Source: Thermoplasmata archaeon (GTDB taxonomy: Archaea > Thermoplasmatota > Thermoplasmata > Thermoplasmatales > Thermoplasmataceae). From it: DNA of 64,000 bases. The stretch is from contig JAKAUW010000013.1 in NCBI GenBank assembly GCA_021817455.1, positions 62,001 to 126,000 of the forward strand. Reading direction: 5' to 3'. The translations under genes and the position numbers were made by a program. Position 1 is the first letter of the stretch; each line of letters starts with the position of its first letter. Below the pieces are notes generated by a model that did not search any database, was not told where the DNA came from, and was given only the letters and a program-made list of their open reading frames with translations. Below are positions 23,929 through 33,617 of this stretch, piece after piece.

Positions 23929-25542
23929 ATGGTCGTCATCAAGGAGACCGTGCCTGCTTTAAGGGAAATTTACGGAAAAAGCTTCATAAGCGATGTTGAA
24001 AAGATGTCTGATGTTATAGGATTCAGCATCGAGAAAGAAAATGATGAATTCCGAGTTGAATTCAATCCTGACAGGCCAGACCTATTCTCTTTCAGCCTTT
24101 TGAAACGAAGCATTGATATTTATCAAGGTAAGAAGGAATGGCAACCAATAAGGGTTGGGGAAGGGACATCAGACTTTAACATTGAAAATGATGTAAGGTC
24201 CCTTAGGCCTTATGCTATCGGATTTCACTGCAAAGGGCCAAGAATAGGAGACCATTACAGGGAACTCATAGACTACCAGGAAAAGCTTCATCTCTCTATT
24301 GGAAAGGATCGATCAAAAGTATCCATCGGCATACACGATGAAAGATACCTCAAGTTTCCTTTGAAATATTCTTCGAGAAAATCAGGGGAAACCAGGTTTA
24401 CGACTTATGATAAAACATTAACCGCCAGTGCTTTGGATATTTTGAAAAAGCACCCAAAGGGGGTCGAGTATGCACATCTCATTCCTTCCAAGGACCTTGT
24501 GCCGATAATAGAGGATTCCGAACACAGGGTACTCTCCATGCCTCCGGTGGTAAACGGCAGTACAACAGTTGTTTCTGAAGATACCAGTGCGTTCTTTATA
24601 GACATTACTGGTACAGACATGAGGGCCTTAAAAGACGCATTCTTCCTCCTATCGTATTACTTCAACAGCCTTGATTTTGAAATTACAGAGTCAAATATAG
24701 AAGACATAAGGAAATTCTTGAACATGGATGGCAGGGAAATTTCAGTTTCTATGAATGAAATCAAGAGAATCCTGGGACAGGAAATTGGCATTGATGAATG
24801 CGTAACTCTACTCCAGAAAATGGGCTATGGTGTCCGAGTTGAAAAAGTCAGGATAGTAGCCGTTGTTCCGGGAAATAGAATAGATGTCATGGGGCCTGTA
24901 GATGTGATCGAGGATGTTGCCAAAGCCTTTGGGTATGGAAACCTGGAGCTTCATATGCCTGATATGGACATTATAGGTGCCGAAGCAGCGGGAAACCAGC
25001 TGGCAAGTAATATCAGAAACATCATGACTGGCCTGGGTTATCAGGAAATCATGACTTATGTAGTTACTACCCAAGAAAACTACAGGCTCGCAGAGTACAA
25101 AGGTGCAGTTCACATCAGGAACCCCAAAAGTCTAGAGTTCAGCATGGTGAGGGACAGGTTATATCTCGGGGTGCTTGATTTCCTCAGACTGAACAAAAGG
25201 AGAAACCTGCCTCAGGCAGTATTTGAGTTGGGTGAAATCATCATTGATGCTGAACAGCAGACAAACCTGTGCGTAGCCAGGATAGGCTCGAGATCTGCAT
25301 TTTCTGATATGAAACAAGTTCTGGATGCAATAATGACTAGGACATCCTTGGGAGAATACATAATCCGGCCCACAGATCATGAGAATTTTGTCAACGGCAG
25401 AACGGGTGAGATTATTACAATGGGTCAATGCATCGGCTATGTTGGTGAAATCCACCCTGAAACCATAGAACAATTCGAGCTGAAAAACCCGGTTGCAATG
25501 ATCGAAATGAATCTGTCAGCTGTTTCCAGTTTACTACGTTAA
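23929..25542 (+). CDS. pheT: Phenylalanyl-tRNA synthetase beta subunit
   Basis: The beta chain of the alpha2-beta2 PheRS: it carries the editing domain (B3/B4) that hydrolyses Tyr-tRNA(Phe), the B5 domain and the catalytic-like core. It has 537 residues, the normal archaeal length. Landmarks are EFNPDRPDLFS near residue 45, the B3/B4 region with LSMPPVVNGS near 205, the B5 entry (ISVSMNEIKRILG) near 270 and GNRIDVMGPVDVIEDVAKAFGY (conserved D-I-VEE-like core) near 310. It is monocistronic here; pheS is not adjacent. The end overlaps the convergent regulator gene by nine bases. Confidence 0.94.
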   Translation: MVVIKETVPALREIYGKSFISDVEKMSDVIGFSIEKENDEFRVEFNPDRPDLFSFSLLKRSIDIYQGKKEWQPIRVGEGTSDFNIENDVRSLRPYAIGFHCKGPRIGDHYRELIDYQEKLHLSIGKDRSKVSIGIHDERYLKFPLKYSSRKSGETRFTTYDKTLTASALDILKKHPKGVEYAHLIPSKDLVPIIEDSEHRVLSMPPVVNGSTTVVSEDTSAFFIDITGTDMRALKDAFFLLSYYFNSLDFEITESNIEDIRKFLNMDGREISVSMNEIKRILGQEIGIDECVTLLQKMGYGVRVEKVRIVAVVPGNRIDVMGPVDVIEDVAKAFGYGNLELHMPDMDIIGAEAAGNQLASNIRNIMTGLGYQEIMTYVVTTQENYRLAEYKGAVHIRNPKSLEFSMVRDRLYLGVLDFLRLNKRRNLPQAVFELGEIIIDAEQQTNLCVARIGSRSAFSDMKQVLDAIMTRTSLGEYIIRPTDHENFVNGRTGEIITMGQCIGYVGEIHPETIEQFELKNPVAMIEMNLSAVSSLLR

Positions 25543-26568
25543 AACACCGGGGAAGAATAGCCGCTCACTTTGCCTCGAAGAAAGATTGATCCCCATTTTT
25601 TTCAGCTTTTCGAGGCTAATCCTGTTGTTTGAAAAGTTATAATTCAGGAGGCTTTTTTCCACAACATCAAGTCCAATTCCAGTGGCTTTTGCAACTTTCT
25701 CTTCCGCTTCCTTTAGCCTAAAGTTATTGGGTCCATCAAGGTTCATCAACCGGGTATATTCAGACACCCATGCCTCAATATTCTTCCTATTGACATCAAA
25801 ACAGTTCAGGTTAATAGCCGCGCTGCAACATGGAAAATCACCGAAGGCATCCCTGTAATGAAAAGCAGCATTGTTCCCCGGAATCTCAAGCAACTGGGAA
25901 AAGTAAGGTTCCCAAATGGCAATCATATTGCACTTTCCAGCCTTGAAATCTAAGAGGGCGGAGTTCGGGTTGTCATAGCTCTCTATATTCTTTGGCAGTT
26001 TTTCCAGCATGGTTTCTGAAGCGAGAGAAATCATCGAGGATAGCTCAGTGCTTAAGATTGCTGCTTTGCCTGCTTTTTGCGAAATTATGCCTGAGCCCCC
26101 AGATGCTAGGCCTGTCAAGACGAGAAGATTTTCCTCCACCATTCCTGACATTATTACTGCCTGGGTGGGCGCAAGCATTAATTCTAGTGTGTTCTTGTTA
26201 AAATCCTGAAAGAGTTCCCTCGTCCCATCATAAAACCTATAGAGCATCTTGAAACCGGCCCTTGTCAGCACACCTTCGAAAACTGCTATAGCAGGGACGT
26301 ACTCGGAAGATTTTAGCATTCCTACCCTCAAGACGCCGCTGATTAGCCCGGGATAGAAATCTAAGTGATATACCTTTACCAACCCACCTTCTTTGCGCCT
26401 TGCTATGACTCTGTCTACTTCTGAAAGGTGAGCCAGCTGTTCGGAACAATACGACTTTGATATGCCCAGTAATTCCTGGAGATCTTTCTGGTATATGCCG
26501 TCCTTCCCCTTTTTAACAAGGAGGTCGATGATCAGGTTCTTCACCCGTGGAGGTTTTCCCAGTACCAC
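25534..26568 (-). CDS. Winged-helix regulator fused to an NMT1/THI5-like solute-binding domain
   Basis: A 344-residue chimera from a GTG at 26568. Residues about 5-65 form a winged helix-turn-helix (KNLIIDLLVKKGKDGIY, then KDLQELLGISKSYCSEQLAHL and a wing). Residues about 80-300 resemble periplasmic binding proteins of the NrtA/SsuA/TauA/ThiY type (LRVGMLKSSEYVPAI, then LELMLAPTQAVIMSG and GSGIISQKAG). No signal peptide is present and the DNA-binding domain is cytoplasmic, so the binding domain probably senses an intracellular ligand. A longer frame to 26646 is open, but its extra residues look non-coding. It is divergent from the AAA-associated-domain gene. Ligand unknown; nitrate, sulfonate or pyrimidine are options known from the family. 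Confidence 0.75.
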   Translation of the reverse strand: MVLGKPPRVKNLIIDLLVKKGKDGIYQKDLQELLGISKSYCSEQLAHLSEVDRVIARRKEGGLVKVYHLDFYPGLISGVLRVGMLKSSEYVPAIAVFEGVLTRAGFKMLYRFYDGTRELFQDFNKNTLELMLAPTQAVIMSGMVEENLLVLTGLASGGSGIISQKAGKAAILSTELSSMISLASETMLEKLPKNIESYDNPNSALLDFKAGKCNMIAIWEPYFSQLLEIPGNNAAFHYRDAFGDFPCCSAAINLNCFDVNRKNIEAWVSEYTRLMNLDGPNNFRLKEAEEKVAKATGIGLDVVEKSLLNYNFSNNRISLEKLKKMGINLSSRQSERLFFPGVLT

Positions 26569-26711
26569 AATAGGTAAAAGAGTATGGGAAATTAAGAGTA
26601 TGCTACAGATCTTATACCTGCTTGCACTCACAAAGCAAAGGAACAAGGGCCTGCCTTACCTTCGTGAGTCAGGTTTGGGTTCATGCATAAAAATTATATG
26701 CTAACAAAAAT

Positions 26712-27200
26712 ATGGAGAACAAATCTGAAATGCACCTTTTAGAGACTGAAAACATAGGGGATATTGTTGGTTTACTAGAAATACTGGAAGATTTAGGTAA
26801 ACCTGTTGACATTGCCACCCTTGACGATTCGCTGGATGAGGAAAGAACTACTCTGCTCAATCTTCTTAATGACGCCGAGGCTCTCGGGCTTGTAAATGTT
26901 GCAGACGGAGATGTTTCCCTTACCAGAGAAGGTAGTATATTCCTGAGGGCCGATCTCACACAAAGGAAAGTGATCCTGAGGAAAATTCTGTCCGGCATAG
27001 AACCTTTTTCGTCAATAATAGCATTCCTTAAGAAAGCTGGGGATGGTGCAATGGAGAAAGAGGAACTTGACGAATTCCTTGGGGGAAATTTCCCATCCGA
27101 GGATCCAGAGGTAACATTCAGGGTCCTGCTTAACTGGGGTCGCTATTCTAAGCTATTTGATTATGACATGGACGATGAGACCCTAACCTATATCGCCTGA
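26712..27200 (+). CDS. Stand-alone AAA-associated C-terminal domain protein
   Basis: A 162-residue protein that resembles the domain found C-terminal to the ATPase of nitrate/sulfonate-type ABC importers (NrtD/SsuB), here without any ATPase domain. The pattern is IGDIVGLLEILEDLGKPVDIATL, interrupted here, followed by LVNVADGDVSLTREG and the C-terminal LLNWGRYSKLFDYD. Such domains carry a winged-helix-like fold and may regulate transport. It is divergent from the HTH/solute-binding fusion, 143 bases apart. No permease or ATPase lies nearby. The start could also be the ATG at 26730. Confidence 0.65.
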   Translation: MENKSEMHLLETENIGDIVGLLEILEDLGKPVDIATLDDSLDEERTTLLNLLNDAEALGLVNVADGDVSLTREGSIFLRADLTQRKVILRKILSGIEPFSSIIAFLKKAGDGAMEKEELDEFLGGNFPSEDPEVTFRVLLNWGRYSKLFDYDMDDETLTYIA

Positions 27201-27290: not shown

Positions 27291-30200
27291 ATGGAATTAC
27301 AGCTTGAGCCTAAATTCAACGGACTATCTAGGATATACAACTACTCAGAAGTCATAATCGTAGGCATATTGGTTGCAGTGTACCTTTTCCTTTCGAATTA
27401 TTTCTACTGGGCTGCCACATTCGTATACGGCGGGGGGATAGCTGCTCTTCCTACATCTGGAGGAAGCGACCCTTACTACAACTTTGTTGCAATACTGCAC
27501 ATATTGAATCAACACACGCAGTTGGTTTATGATCCAACCTTAAATTACCCACTTGGTACCATCAACCCAAGGAATCCGTTCTTCCACTGGTTCATAGCAC
27601 TGGTGGCTGAAATACTGTCACCAATCTATGGTGCACAGAATGCGGCTTTCTATGCTTTTGAAGAGTTCAACGCAGTCTTCGGCGCCCTTCTCATAATTCC
27701 AGTATATCTAATCACAAAGGAAATCTTTGGTAAGAATGCAGCTGGAATAGGCGCCCTGCTTTACACCCTCATGCCGAGTAACCTTTCTGCAGGTATCCTT
27801 TCTGGAGGAAGGATGCACACTCCCGAACTTATATTCGCATTCTTCGCAGTCTATTTCTTCCTCAAGGCGATCAAGCTTTCAGAAAAAACAAGGATCATTG
27901 AAAACCTCAGGGATTTCAAGTCTTACCATATCAAAGTTTATCAGTTCTTCAACAAAAACAGGGTTGCAACTATATATGGCCTTTTGGCTGGCGCCTCGCT
28001 GGGCGGTCTGATGCTCTCTTGGCAGGGATATGCTTACATAGAGGCAATCCTCCTCATATATGTTGCAGTGCAGCTAATTGTAAACCTTATTCTCAAGCGG
28101 CCCACCGGATACATCACTTATTACACTGCCCTGTTTGTCCTTCTGGGCTTTGCAATGGGCTTCTACTATTACTTAGGCGTGAACGAACTAAACGGATGGT
28201 ACAATGCTGAGCTCGAGCTCGGTCTTGTCATGATCCTTTTCGGTGCCCTCATTGGTCTAGTGGGAAGAAGGCCATGGGTACTCATCATACCTGTTCTTAT
28301 CATTGCCGTGATTGCTGGACTTGAGGGCATGGCCCATCTTAGTCCTGCCCTTTTCAACAGGCTCATCAGCGGTGACGGTTATTTCATCAAGACAAGAGTA
28401 TATACCACAATCGCTGAAGCAGCAGCCCCACAGCTCGGTTCTTACATTGGGGGATTTGGCATAGCCCAATTCCTGTTGGGAATGGTAGGAATCGGTTACG
28501 GCGCATACCTTTTCCTCAAGGAGAAGACCGACCAGTTGCTTCTCATTCTGGTATTCTCAGTAGTATCCATCTACATGAGCTTTGCAGCTGCGCGTTTCAA
28601 CATTACGGCCGCCCCGGCTTACGCCATTCTTGGTGCTGGAGTCCTATTGCTCTTCGCAAGAATCTCCAGGCTTGAAGATGTAAAGAAGAAGAAACCATTT
28701 GCTTCATCTTCCCCATTAAGGGCTGTTAAGGGAAATATTAAATGGCTTCAGGCTGTATTTGTAATCTTCGTAACGGTTCTCGTTGTATTGCCATCTGCCA
28801 CATCAATGGTTTCGGCCTCGGTACCAGCAGGCAGTTCAGCACAGGCACAGATCGAGAGCCAGATAGCAAACTCGCTTCCAGGCTTCCTCAAGACAAATAA
28901 CACTACAAACTTTGTCGGAGGCCTTAGTGGCGGAATTTCAAACGGTTCTACCCCATTGAGCAAGTCACTCGCATGGCTTAGCACACAGGATTCCAACCTT
29001 CCAATTCAGGATAAGCCTGCTTACGTTTCGTGGTGGGACTACGGTTTCCAGGAAAGGTATCAGGGCCAGCACCCCACTGTTGCAGACGATTTCCAGCAGG
29101 CAGTTGAAATGGCAGGGCAGACTCTGCTTGCACAGAATGAGTCCCAAATCATCAGTTTGTTCATAAGCAGGCTAATACAGGCCAATTTCACAAATGGCGA
29201 TTTCAATGCTCCCGTTAAGGCGAGCCTCATTCAGTATCTGGGTTATGGCGAATACCTGAATTTGACTAAGGTCTCGTCAAACCCATCATCTTTCACCAGT
29301 GTAGTGCTCGCAAACCCTTCAATATATGGCCAGTACATTAAGGAAGTAAGCGGGGCTAATGTATACTTTGCGTATGTCAAAGGACAACTTGCAAGCAAAT
29401 ATTCCATTTCTACATTAGTGAATCTTTACCAGGCCATAATGGGCGACACCGGTTACAGTATCAAATATATCCAGGTTCCAACAGATTCGAGCCTTGCATC
29501 GCTATTGCCCGTATCCGCCCAGAACACTGGAATATTCTACGCACCTGCCTATCTTACAGATTCACCCTCATACAGTTCAGCGGGTGGAGGCATTATCCCC
29601 ACAGAATACTACAACATTTACGCCAACACAAACAATGGGACATTCTCGCTTCAGAATCTCCCCCAGGGGTATATCCCAACTGCCTACAACATACAGTTTA
29701 CTTCTGAGTTTTACAACACTTCAATCTACAGATTTACAATCGGGCTTCCGCCAAACGTGCTCGGACAGACAAATGGAATACCTGGCATCTCTTTCGGGGC
29801 TTCTCAGTATTCTGTGAAACCTGCCTGGAACATGAGCAACTTCATGGTCATTTATGAAAATGTTCCATACAACCCATACACCGATTACTCAGCCCATCCC
29901 TCTGCGTGGACCACTGTACCGCTTTCACAGGCTTACTATTACCAGCAGCATGGAATGGGTACGGTTGACCTGACACCCCCAGTTTCGACTTCCCTTTCCA
30001 TTTCAGATCCCATAATAGCCTACTATCCAGGTGCTATCATTCACGGAAGAGTAACAATGCCAGATGGTCAGCCGGTTCCAGGAGTTCATGTAACATTATT
30101 TGACCAGTACGGAGTGCCTCATGGAGTTGTGGACACAAACAGCCGGGGATACTACAATGTTTCAGGCCTCCCAGGCAACGATACCCTATTCTTCTCATTC

Positions 30201-33200
30201 GGGTCTACAAATAATCAGTTCCTCATAGGAACCACAACACTTGGCACAAAGAATGTGTACGTTTCGATGAACCAGGCGAACAGGATACCCACATCATATA
30301 ACCAGTCTACCTGGCTTCCCGATTATTACATTCAGAAGAACCTGCAACTTTCGAACACAACTGCTTCAGGAAACGCTGCATTCCAGTACCAGCAGGCATA
30401 TCCAGGAAAGGGTACGACACAGACACAGCCACTAACCTCTGAAATAAGGGATGGTACAGTTACATTCAGCAACAGCCGGTACAACTTGTCTTACTCAGCA
30501 CCAATTATTGACGGCAACTATTCTATGTCAGAATTGCCTCCTATATCCTACAATGTTTCCATAACAACCGGTGGACATACATTTACAAATATTCAGGTTG
30601 CAAACATCAGCAATGGTGGCAGCGTGGTTTATAACCTCAAGGTTCCATTTGACGTAATTTTTGCAAACCTTACTGTTGCAGGCAAAGCCATCAGTGGGGT
30701 AGGAGTTTCTGCAACCAGCACTAACGGGTATGTGGCAAGTTCCACAGTTACAAACGGGAATGGCACCGCAATAATTTGGGTCACTCCCGGGAGCTACCAA
30801 GTCTCTGCTTCTGGGGCCGGTATAGGCTCCTTCAGCCAGCAGGCATCCTTTTCAAAATGGGGTAGTAATATTACACTGCAACTGAATCCGGAACTTTCTG
30901 CTAAGGTATCCATCGACGTATCCGGTTCACCTGCAGGAACCGGCGTGAAGCTTTTCACCAATGGATTGATTTCAGATGCAATTCCTTTGAGTTCTGTCAA
31001 TGGGGTCTTCACAGGTTCAATTCCATACGGTGTGTACACCATTTATGCAACCGATGGCCAAATGTCTTACATGAAAACTGTTGTCCTGAATGGAACATAT
31101 AAATCTACCATATCGCTTGTGCCTTCTTCTAACATTACAATCACTTCCAACCTTCCTGGTGCTTCAAGATATTCTGGCTCTTATGAAATCCTTAACGATT
31201 CAGCAATGATCTCATACGACTTCGCATCTATCCACAAGCTAAGCATTGAAATCCCTGAGGGAGTTTACTCAATTGCAGGTATCGGGGTCTACACTGGTGG
31301 GACATCATCTGCATATGACCGTGTCAACCTGTTTGGAAACCAGAGCCTTAACCTTAGCCTGACCTCAAATTACACAGTATCTGCACTGCTTTACAACCAG
31401 AACAGTGCCACCAGCTATAACTCCAATAGCGCAATTTCTTCCGGCATCGTAGTCCTCAAGTACGGTGGAATCCCAGTCTATTACAATCCAGTTGGTACTT
31501 CCGGAATAGCGAGTCTGTATTACCAGTCCGGATCTAGCAGTGGCCTCACTGTTACCTTTGCAGGGGCATATTACACCGGTTCAACTGTTAATGTAAAAGG
31601 CCAGCAAGTCACAGTTCCAGTTATACCGGTTGAGAAGAGCATTAAGGTTTCACTTAATTCTACACCTTTGTTCACTTCATTGCAGACACTAACTCTTGCT
31701 TCCTCGTCTGGAACATATAACTTTACGCTGCTTCACGGAACAGGTTCAGTGAAAGTTCCCATAGGCGTTTACCGTGCAACGGTAAACCAGTCTGGCATAG
31801 AGTCCGCTATTTATCCGGGATATGCTTCAATAGATATGGGAACCCCTTCATTTATGTCGTTGAATCTGGTACAGTTCGTCAATGTTAGTGTTAAGAATGC
31901 AAATTTGGCCCAACTGTACTATTCAAATGGGACTGCTGTGAATGGACTGAGAAATGTCCAGACAGGGCAGTACATTCTTTATGCCTACAACAACTCACTT
32001 GGGCTGGTCAACATGAGCAAGGTATACATAACTTCAACTACAACTATCTCTCCGACATATGTCTCTGCTTATGGGCTGAACCTGACCAACAGCTACGGAC
32101 TCAATTCAGGCACCTATAGTATTACATCAGGCGCTGGGACTATAAACACTTCAAAAGGAAACATAATGCTGCCTCAGGGCACCTATTCCGTGAGCTATAT
32201 TGAAAAACAGTCAAGCAACACCGGATCATTCATCTATTCAGGCTCTGGGAGCGTATCTTTGAATTCTAACCAGGCATTGAGCGTGCAGGTTTCAAAGAAT
32301 GAAGTTTTTGCCAAAGTTTCTGGTACTGTTACCTATGGAAACATGCCTTACCAGAACACTTACATTGAATATGTAAATTCCAATGGCAATATTGTTGCAT
32401 CTGGTCTCACCAACACCAGCGGTGGTTACACCATCAACTCACCTACAGGGTATTATACCGTTTATGCGGTGAACAATGGAACTAGGCTGGCTTATCTCGG
32501 CGTTATCAGCATTCCTGCTTATGCCACTTCATACGGGCAGAATTTAACACTGACCCAAGCCTATTCAGTTTCATTCAGCGTCAACATGGCATCCCAGACA
32601 ATCAACAACCCGGTGAATATAACCTCTGGAAACTCACTTCTGATTGTTTTGCCAGACTCTGGCTCTCTGCTTCTTCCGAAGGGCGGATATGGATTCACAT
32701 CCACGGTTACCTCGACTGAGCAGTCTGCTGTTGGAAATTACCTGTCTATTTCCTACTCCAGCTCTGTGAATTTGCAGCTTTCTTCAAACCAGGTTGTGCC
32801 ACTTACACTTTCAAAGATTGTGGTGCACTCTTTCCAGGTAAAATTACTGTCCAGTGTTGCAACCATTAACAGAGGGGGCAACCTCACCTACCAGTTCATA
32901 CTTTACAACAACGGAAACAGCAATGAAACAGTTTCTCTGGCCTCAGGAAGTAACAGGTGGCACGAGGCCTTTGTGGGCAATTCAACTATCCTTGTTGGGG
33001 GAAACGCCACTTATACAATGAATGCAACACTGGTCGGAAACCAGCAATACGGGGCAGGTTCTATTCCTTTCTACGTGAACTATACTGGTGGTTCCTCTGA
33101 ACTTTCACTGCCTGTAAAGATTGCCAAGAGCATCAATTACACTCTGAAACCCGGAATTAGCCCGGTCTATTTAGGCAACAGCGCGCTCCTCCCAATCATC

Positions 33201-33617
33201 CTGAACAATACGGGAAACGGTGAGGTCACGGTGAACTTAACGTTCAATGAAACAGTGCTTAGCCAGAATGGCTGGTCAGGATTCTTCAACGGAACCCACT
33301 CTACAAACCTTACTGTGGTTCTGCAATATAATACCGTAAAGACCGTGTACGTGACTCTGACTCCAAAAGTGCCCAATCCTCCATACCCAGTCAGCTTCAA
33401 TGTTAATGCAACTTCAACTGGGTTGCCTGGAAAAGCCGTCTACCTTACACTCGAGTCTTCACCATCTGCAAGTGTCACCCCGTACCCCACAGGTCCCCTG
33501 GTTACCTCTAACTATACAGGAACCCCAACCGAAAACCTGATTGTAGGCATTGTGATAATTGTGGTCGCCGTTGTTGCAGGCCTCGGTGTTTCAGCATACA
33601 GGGGGAGAAGAAATTGA
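27291..33617 (+). CDS. aglB: Giant oligosaccharyltransferase AglB (STT3 family) with surface extension
   Basis: Transfers a lipid-linked glycan to Asn in N-x-S/T sequons outside the cytoplasmic membrane. It has 2,108 residues; archaeal AglB proteins are usually under about 1,000. Residues 20-500 contain about a dozen hydrophobic segments with the catalytic SDPYY (Asp60) and GRMHTPELIF. The signature WWDYG is at 581-585. From about 920 a carboxypeptidase-regulatory-like module begins (GRVTMPDGQPVPG), followed by further Gly-Tyr-rich beta repeats, a NEW3/CARDB-like module (about 1,840-2,060) and a final membrane helix at about 2,080-2,101 with a basic end (YRGRRN). The extension holds roughly forty sequons by eye. 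No frameshift or internal stop is present. Its TTGA overlap couples it to the next gene. Confidence 0.93.
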   Translation: MELQLEPKFNGLSRIYNYSEVIIVGILVAVYLFLSNYFYWAATFVYGGGIAALPTSGGSDPYYNFVAILHILNQHTQLVYDPTLNYPLGTINPRNPFFHWFIALVAEILSPIYGAQNAAFYAFEEFNAVFGALLIIPVYLITKEIFGKNAAGIGALLYTLMPSNLSAGILSGGRMHTPELIFAFFAVYFFLKAIKLSEKTRIIENLRDFKSYHIKVYQFFNKNRVATIYGLLAGASLGGLMLSWQGYAYIEAILLIYVAVQLIVNLILKRPTGYITYYTALFVLLGFAMGFYYYLGVNELNGWYNAELELGLVMILFGALIGLVGRRPWVLIIPVLIIAVIAGLEGMAHLSPALFNRLISGDGYFIKTRVYTTIAEAAAPQLGSYIGGFGIAQFLLGMVGIGYGAYLFLKEKTDQLLLILVFSVVSIYMSFAAARFNITAAPAYAILGAGVLLLFARISRLEDVKKKKPFASSSPLRAVKGNIKWLQAVFVIFVTVLVVLPSATSMVSASVPAGSSAQAQIESQIANSLPGFLKTNNTTNFVGGLSGGISNGSTPLSKSLAWLSTQDSNLPIQDKPAYVSWWDYGFQERYQGQHPTVADDFQQAVEMAGQTLLAQNESQIISLFISRLIQANFTNGDFNAPVKASLIQYLGYGEYLNLTKVSSNPSSFTSVVLANPSIYGQYIKEVSGANVYFAYVKGQLASKYSISTLVNLYQAIMGDTGYSIKYIQVPTDSSLASLLPVSAQNTGIFYAPAYLTDSPSYSSAGGGIIPTEYYNIYANTNNGTFSLQNLPQGYIPTAYNIQFTSEFYNTSIYRFTIGLPPNVLGQTNGIPGISFGASQYSVKPAWNMSNFMVIYENVPYNPYTDYSAHPSAWTTVPLSQAYYYQQHGMGTVDLTPPVSTSLSISDPIIAYYPGAIIHGRVTMPDGQPVPGVHVTLFDQYGVPHGVVDTNSRGYYNVSGLPGNDTLFFSFGSTNNQFLIGTTTLGTKNVYVSMNQANRIPTSYNQSTWLPDYYIQKNLQLSNTTASGNAAFQYQQAYPGKGTTQTQPLTSEIRDGTVTFSNSRYNLSYSAPIIDGNYSMSELPPISYNVSITTGGHTFTNIQVANISNGGSVVYNLKVPFDVIFANLTVAGKAISGVGVSATSTNGYVASSTVTNGNGTAIIWVTPGSYQVSASGAGIGSFSQQASFSKWGSNITLQLNPELSAKVSIDVSGSPAGTGVKLFTNGLISDAIPLSSVNGVFTGSIPYGVYTIYATDGQMSYMKTVVLNGTYKSTISLVPSSNITITSNLPGASRYSGSYEILNDSAMISYDFASIHKLSIEIPEGVYSIAGIGVYTGGTSSAYDRVNLFGNQSLNLSLTSNYTVSALLYNQNSATSYNSNSAISSGIVVLKYGGIPVYYNPVGTSGIASLYYQSGSSSGLTVTFAGAYYTGSTVNVKGQQVTVPVIPVEKSIKVSLNSTPLFTSLQTLTLASSSGTYNFTLLHGTGSVKVPIGVYRATVNQSGIESAIYPGYASIDMGTPSFMSLNLVQFVNVSVKNANLAQLYYSNGTAVNGLRNVQTGQYILYAYNNSLGLVNMSKVYITSTTTISPTYVSAYGLNLTNSYGLNSGTYSITSGAGTINTSKGNIMLPQGTYSVSYIEKQSSNTGSFIYSGSGSVSLNSNQALSVQVSKNEVFAKVSGTVTYGNMPYQNTYIEYVNSNGNIVASGLTNTSGGYTINSPTGYYTVYAVNNGTRLAYLGVISIPAYATSYGQNLTLTQAYSVSFSVNMASQTINNPVNITSGNSLLIVLPDSGSLLLPKGGYGFTSTVTSTEQSAVGNYLSISYSSSVNLQLSSNQVVPLTLSKIVVHSFQVKLLSSVATINRGGNLTYQFILYNNGNSNETVSLASGSNRWHEAFVGNSTILVGGNATYTMNATLVGNQQYGAGSIPFYVNYTGGSSELSLPVKIAKSINYTLKPGISPVYLGNSALLPIILNNTGNGEVTVNLTFNETVLSQNGWSGFFNGTHSTNLTVVLQYNTVKTVYVTLTPKVPNPPYPVSFNVNATSTGLPGKAVYLTLESSPSASVTPYPTGPLVTSNYTGTPTENLIVGIVIIVVAVVAGLGVSAYRGRRN

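Follow-up and report, generated by a model that had tools for sequence, protein, structure and literature searches.

Two divergent genes of an acidophilic Thermoplasmata archaeon, here called P1 and P2, encode proteins that resemble parts of ABC importers, and the locus raises the question whether transporter pieces have been reused together as a ligand-sensing regulatory unit, as the initial annotation had proposed, or whether the two genes have separate roles. The window, i.e., the whole stretch of DNA that was analysed, comprises 64,000 nucleotides of assembly GCA_021817455.1 (contig JAKAUW010000013.1, positions 62,001-126,000 of the forward strand). The folds, the association of P2 with a permease, the dispersal of the importer genes over three contigs and the link of a nad operator to P1 were computed directly. 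With a probability of about 0.7, the promoter region at this locus serves two unrelated functions, P1 being a one-component regulator and P2 an importer subunit. The features are as follows:

25534..26568, minus strand: P1, regulator with a winged helix and an SsuA/NrtA-type binding-protein domain, 344 amino acids, GTG start at 26568
26344..26568, minus strand: winged-helix DNA-binding domain of P1, residues 1-75 (model helices and MarR-type Pfam matches of homologues)
25537..26343, minus strand: sensor domain of P1, type II SBP fold, residues 76-344 (alignment, model and fold matches)
26569..26646, minus strand: TTG-started extension of 26 residues, non-coding (in-frame stops in G003, G004, and G005; family alignment starts at 26568)
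26569..26711, no strand: divergent intergenic region common to P1 and P2
26685..26701, no strand: candidate operator GCATA-N7-TATGC over the TATA-like box of P2 (exact matches in related loci)
26712..27200, plus strand: P2, stand-alone AAA_assoc_C (PF09821) with a tandem winged-helix fold, probably a detached importer subunit

A PheT-like gene (23929-25542) is convergent with P1, and the two overlap by 9 bases (25534-25542). Downstream of P2 lies an STT3/AglB-like gene (27291-33617; 2108 residues) with carboxypeptidase-regulatory-like domains C-terminal to the catalytic part; a similarly long copy is present in most relatives. The earlier statement that neither a permease nor an ATPase lies near the pair was correct for its surroundings, and both were found elsewhere in the same genome.

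As listed, the open reading frame of P1 opens at TTG 26646, and its 26-residue N-terminus is hydrophobic and signal-like. The homologous stretch upstream of the GTG start contains an in-frame stop in three congeners (G003, G004, and G005). Because of these stops and the start of the family alignment at 26568, P1 was assigned 344 amino acids and the intergenic region positions 26569-26711. The TTG-started extension is thus non-coding and P1 lacks a signal peptide, in agreement with the initial annotation; an importer-type export signal was not found in P1, the winged helix of which begins at residue 8.

The single sequence of P1 yielded weak Pfam evidence (NMT1_2, E 0.098; HTH_24, E 0.12). At a threshold of E 0.01, MarR_2 was matched by 24 and NMT1_2 by 8 of the 37 P1 homologues, P1 itself remaining below the cut-off. 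Neither P1 nor P2 exceeded the cut-off of any NCBIfam family, and a sequence search of the PDB with P1 returned no match. The AlphaFold2 model of P1, generated from 37 aligned sequences (pLDDT 92.5, pTM 0.89), revealed a winged helix at residues 8-68 (helices 8-23, 27-34, and 38-50 as well as wing strands) followed by a two-lobed domain. Residues 76-342 matched binding proteins of the SsuA/TauA/NrtA/CmpA type (Foldseek E down to 1.1e-15). The best PDB match of this sensor domain was 3un6 from S. aureus (Z 25.7, rmsd 3.0, 259 aligned); further matches were NrtA (Z 24.3), the CmpC regulatory domain (23.9), TauA (23.6), CmpA (23.5), and SsuA (21.5). The cytosolic regulatory domain of CmpC/NrtC was represented by 9uak, 9uai, and 8wm7 (Z 23.9 and 23.8). 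The model, the fold matches and the Pfam matches of the homologues confirmed the proposed fusion of a winged helix to an NMT1/SsuA-like binding domain.

Twelve alignment columns were invariant in all 37 homologues of P1, and the invariant residues of the sensor are E89, Y90, P134, G158, M179, W219, E220, P221, C247, and C248. An N-terminal winged helix was likewise present in 37 of 37, with the residues Q27, S37, S39, and S42 of its helix-turn-helix invariant or nearly so. The winged helix and its conserved residues argue against an enzymatic or ligand-carrying role of P1, like that of THI5/MqnA/MqnD, in place of regulation; we regard such a role as very improbable even though Thi5, MqnD, and MqnA occur among the fold matches with lower Z (17.6, 19.1, and 14.3, respectively). 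A one-component regulator of transcription that resides in the cytosol explains P1 well, and we have high confidence that it is a ligand-sensing one. The MarR-like winged helix would read DNA, the binding-protein domain would serve as the ligand sensor, and P1 would act by ligand-dependent repression at promoters; repression is proposed because in one related family the operator immediately precedes nadX and, in two genomes, an amt-like gene. Candidate ligands are small anions and precursors, and the targets of P1 in this genus may be P2 and perhaps P1 itself.

Among transporter proteins, P1 is closest to NMT1_2 binding proteins that carry a WEP...CC signature. Nine binding-protein matches to P1 were fetched; most of these were secreted, with a permease and an ATPase nearby. 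Several secreted binding proteins related to the sensor look circularly permuted, in the order membrane anchor, C-terminal lobe (WEP...CC), N-terminal lobe (L264:7040-8065, L265:7482-8624, L267:7537-8637, L269:7054-8154, and L270:7710-8834; also in L262, L266, and L268). In L267, residues 30-121 correspond to positions 149-240 of the NMT1_2 profile and residues 273-363 to positions 28-119 of NMT1. The secreted binding protein at L263:7397-8512 has its lobes in the normal order.

P2 matched AAA_assoc_C (PF09821) with an E of 3.7e-27 and 95.7 bits (cut-off 27.6) over positions 3-119 of the 119-position profile, and all 34 aligned homologues matched PF09821. Both domains foreseen in the initial annotation are present, the HMM search finding AAA_assoc_C of P2 strongly and NMT1_2 of P1 weakly. 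Besides AAA_assoc_C, P2 gave two weak matches only, and a P-loop ATPase domain (PF00005) was not found in it. The model of P2 (pLDDT 91.1) consists of helices with small wings, folding as two winged helices. Its best Foldseek matches were weak, none reaching E <= 0.001, with many winged-helix proteins among them, and a sequence search of the PDB with P2 returned nothing significant (MgtE at E 0.23).

Co-occurrence was assessed in 61 genomes, namely the genome of the window and 60 relatives, with tests that ignore phylogeny and carry no correction for kinship; gene neighbourhoods were derived from a longest-ORF caller. P2 was present in 48 and a duplicated permease of the SsuC/NrtB type in 46 of these genomes. 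Both occurred in 46, P2 only in 2, the permease only in 0 and neither in 13 (Fisher p 1.6e-11, kinship ignored), the two genomes with P2 only being assemblies of 69% and 76% completeness. In 27 of the 46 genomes, including G012 with its broken copy, P2 and the permease were at most 3 kb apart, and an ABC ATPase of about 250-280 residues usually also adjoined the two in the fetched neighbourhoods. In G012, the duplicated permease lies in four pieces beside a partial P2 (G012:C1:153418-155012), which reflects either decay or an assembly error. G060 contains two copies of P2, one similar to the P2 of the window and one divergent from it, and the permease that adjoins each copy is of the corresponding type.

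In bacteria, the P2 domain forms the C-terminus of an ABC ATPase. In a tblastn search, 23 plasmid records matched, and the name of an ATPase was annotated under 21 of these matches, one of the other two being unannotated. Twelve plasmid regions were viewed: in 11, a permease gene (about 555-671 codons) was directly followed by the gene for the ATPase with AAA_assoc_C, and the twelfth was unannotated. The bacterial cassettes L327, L328, and L334 have neighbours of the Nramp, MgtC/SapB or VIT families and no binding protein annotated beside them, which hints at metals.

The genome of the window contains a single PF09821 match, an orthologue of the permease (C16:44120-45733; 48%), the genes displayed around it including no ATPase, and an orthologue of the ATPase (C47:12091-12834; 66%). 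It has all three importer genes, scattered on three contigs. This dispersal, together with the tracking of the permease by P2, indicates that P2 is a detached importer subunit, an assignment in which our confidence is as high as for the role of P1; a three-protein complex is predicted. P2 would represent the C-terminal tandem winged-helix domain of an ABC ATPase of the nitrate/sulfonate/bicarbonate type, encoded as a separate subunit. A stand-alone AAA_assoc_C should be read as a transporter subunit, the partners of which may be scattered over the genome.

The domain type given for P2 in the initial annotation, the C-terminal AAA-associated domain of NrtD/SsuB-type ATPases, was correct, whereas its reuse as a regulatory part was not supported: the presence of P2, its two sequence types and its neighbours follow the ABC permease, and bacteria fuse the domain to the ATPase. 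A complete transporter operon was found beside P2 alone in relatives, and not beside the pair. The fold of P2 as two winged helices and its head-to-head position with P1 in 14 of the 43 fetched P1 loci would suit a single regulatory unit, in which P2 acts with P1 in transcription control. This is improbable given the 46/2/0/13 distribution with the permease, the bacterial fusions and the occurrence of P2 without P1 in 8 of the 61 genomes. The idea that transporter pieces have become a ligand-sensing regulator holds for P1, through its fold, its winged helix and the operator described below for family f5, but not for P2, which is an importer part. The further suggestion of the initial annotation, control of an importer encoded elsewhere, may hold, P2 itself belonging to an importer with its remaining genes at other loci.

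P1 was present in 47 of the 61 genomes. Among 292 genomes of the phylum, all full-length matches fell inside the order, and other groups matched part of the protein. The 43 fetched P1 loci leave out some genomes with a P1 match (e.g., G012, G024, G025, G036, and G051). Of these loci, 14 have P2 head-to-head with P1, 5 have AglB, 2 have NadX and 4 have an amino-acid permease (6 when small ORFs were ignored) in this position. The amino-acid permease occupies the slot held here by P2 in L075:8508-9830, L112, L272, and L274. Association of P1 with the duplicated permease over the 61 genomes was weak (38/9/8/6, p 0.087). Since P1 often faces AglB or an amino-acid permease, the pairing with P2 may simply result from the order of genes at the locus.

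A target of P1 was suggested by relatives. NadA is encoded in 9 of the 61 genomes, is confined to two families and is absent from the genome of the window. In family f5, P1 adjoins nadX-nadA-nadC in three genomes, and the start of nadX is preceded, at a distance of roughly twelve bases, by TGAACA-NN-TGTTCA, a perfect palindrome; the predicted target DNA of P1 in this family is TGAACAnnTGTTCA. The palindrome precedes nadX in 5 of 5 f5 genomes with P1 (G040, G044, G047, G057, and G059) and occurs in none of the four nad promoters of NadA genomes without P1 (G041, G050, G053, and G055; Fisher p 0.008, phylogeny ignored). The palindrome precedes nadX even in G047 and G057, where separate contigs carry nad and P1; the second NadA copy of G047 has none. 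The motif is rare, with 11 places in the 61 genomes, seven of which are in the five f5 genomes with P1 (five before nad and two before amt-like genes) and the remaining four inside ORFs of family f1 genomes. The amt-like places are in G040 and G057 (L305:1501-1514 and L306:1501-1514), and the promoter in G040 contains a second copy with one mismatch 20 bases away. The amt-like genes of G044 and G047, both with P1, and of G050, G053, and G055 have no palindrome. Endonuclease III, amt, RibB, MTA phosphorylase, beta-CASP, and XPD are names assigned on visual inspection.

In G050, G053, and G055, the order endonuclease III, Lrp-type gene, c45, nadXAC is kept, and both P1 and the palindrome are missing; G057, a member of that genus, has the two. 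In these fetched loci, the loss of P1 and palindrome while the Lrp-type gene stays amounts to a natural deletion experiment and speaks against binding of the palindrome by the Lrp-type protein. The palindrome could be bound by another factor and have been lost together with P1, as only nine genomes have NadA and the association could stem from as few as one or two losses. The retention of the Lrp-type gene in 3 of 3 f5 genomes without P1 and site and the contrast within one genus make this explanation unlikely. The comparison of relatives suggests that the P1 family controls NAD synthesis genes; the f5 branch of P1 probably represses NAD synthesis, and its role as a nad regulator with the predicted operator is likely. 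The predicted operator, the target operon and the natural loss make the proposed role of P1 directly testable.

Whether P1 controls P2 in the window was approached through their common intergenic region. The fetched loci, 1.50 Mb in total, contain four exact matches of GCATA-N7-TATGC, and three of these lie in the P1-P2 intergenic region (window, G003, and G008). G008 represents another genus, so the candidate P2 operator is kept in two genera. With one mismatch allowed, the count in the window was not above chance. The regions upstream of P1 were compared across the order in a set of 26, after removal of three near-duplicates and of any region that was internal to an operon or truncated by a contig end; dyads of 4-6 bases revealed no common palindrome and only AT-rich or two-region patterns. 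The f5 operator is therefore not transferable to this genome, which also lacks NadA. A comparison by eye of the promoter of the permease in this genome with the P1-P2 region showed no common motif or operator. Control of P2 by P1 is plausible here, at somewhat less than even odds. Of similar weight, and marginally above it, is the possibility that P1 regulates other genes and stands beside P2 by accident, P2 having merely landed between P1 and AglB. The wider linkage of P1 with AglB than with P2, the filling of the same slot by P2 or an APC permease and the weak phyletic link of P1 with the importer permease speak for such an accident; the head-to-head order held in 14 loci and the TATA-overlapping palindrome kept in two genera speak against it.

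A more far-reaching proposal joins the two proteins through NAD. P1 would then be an archaeal family derived from an importer binding protein that came to sense an NAD precursor in the cytosol, repressing nadXAC in genomes with de novo NAD synthesis and, in genomes without nadA, controlling uptake of the precursor by the importer with P2 and the duplicated permease. The permease is absent from all 9 NadA genomes and present in 46 of the 52 genomes without NadA. Against an NAD-precursor importer stand the occurrence of both NadA and PF09821 in Sulfolobus acidocaldarius and Synechococcus elongatus, which served as control genomes, and the metal-transport genes (Nramp, MgtC, and VIT family) among the neighbours of the bacterial cassettes. 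We consider this proposal speculative and rather unlikely as a whole; the preferred reading remains a regulator and an importer subunit at one promoter region.

None of the components, namely the fold of the sensor, the winged helix and AAA_assoc_C, is of a new kind. Literature searches yielded no archaeal one-component regulator that joins a MarR-like winged helix to an SsuA/NrtA-type sensor, nothing on the P1 family in work on archaeal NAD regulons, and nothing on AAA_assoc_C by name or on an AAA-associated domain together with an ABC transporter. Residues 76-342 of P1 share the fold of the SsuA/TauA/NrtA/CmpA-type binding proteins (NMT1_2, PF13379), and its EP...CC stretch is also found in 3un6 from S. 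aureus and in secreted archaeal relatives. In contrast to SsuA/NrtA-type binding proteins, P1 is predicted to be cytosolic, has a winged helix instead of a signal peptide and has no permease or ATPase of its own adjoining. The regulatory domain of CmpC/NrtC is the closest earlier example of an intracellular role for such a fold (PMC11349869). Like P1, this domain uses the fold as an intracellular sensor, but it is fused to an ABC ATPase, whereas the sensor of P1 is fused to a DNA-binding domain. LysR-type regulators combine a winged helix with a type II binding-protein fold and work as proposed for P1, but the helix-turn-helix of P1 appears to be of the MarR type, and P1 did not match the LysR profiles HTH_1 and LysR_substrate at E up to 1.

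P2 corresponds to the C-terminal domain of the nitrate/sulfonate/bicarbonate ABC ATPase that acts with a duplicated permease, a cassette present in the 11 annotated plasmid regions and which we take to be COG4986. Unlike in the bacterial cassette, AAA_assoc_C is here encoded by a gene of its own, and all three importer genes lie apart. The sensor domain of the bacterial NiaR/NrtR-type NAD regulators is unrelated to that of P1, and P1 is archaeal. These bacterial regulators are described as repressors of nad genes (PMC5343564; PMC6800001), the role that P1 of family f5 would have. P1 would represent a clean case of an importer binding protein turned into a cytosolic transcription sensor in archaea.
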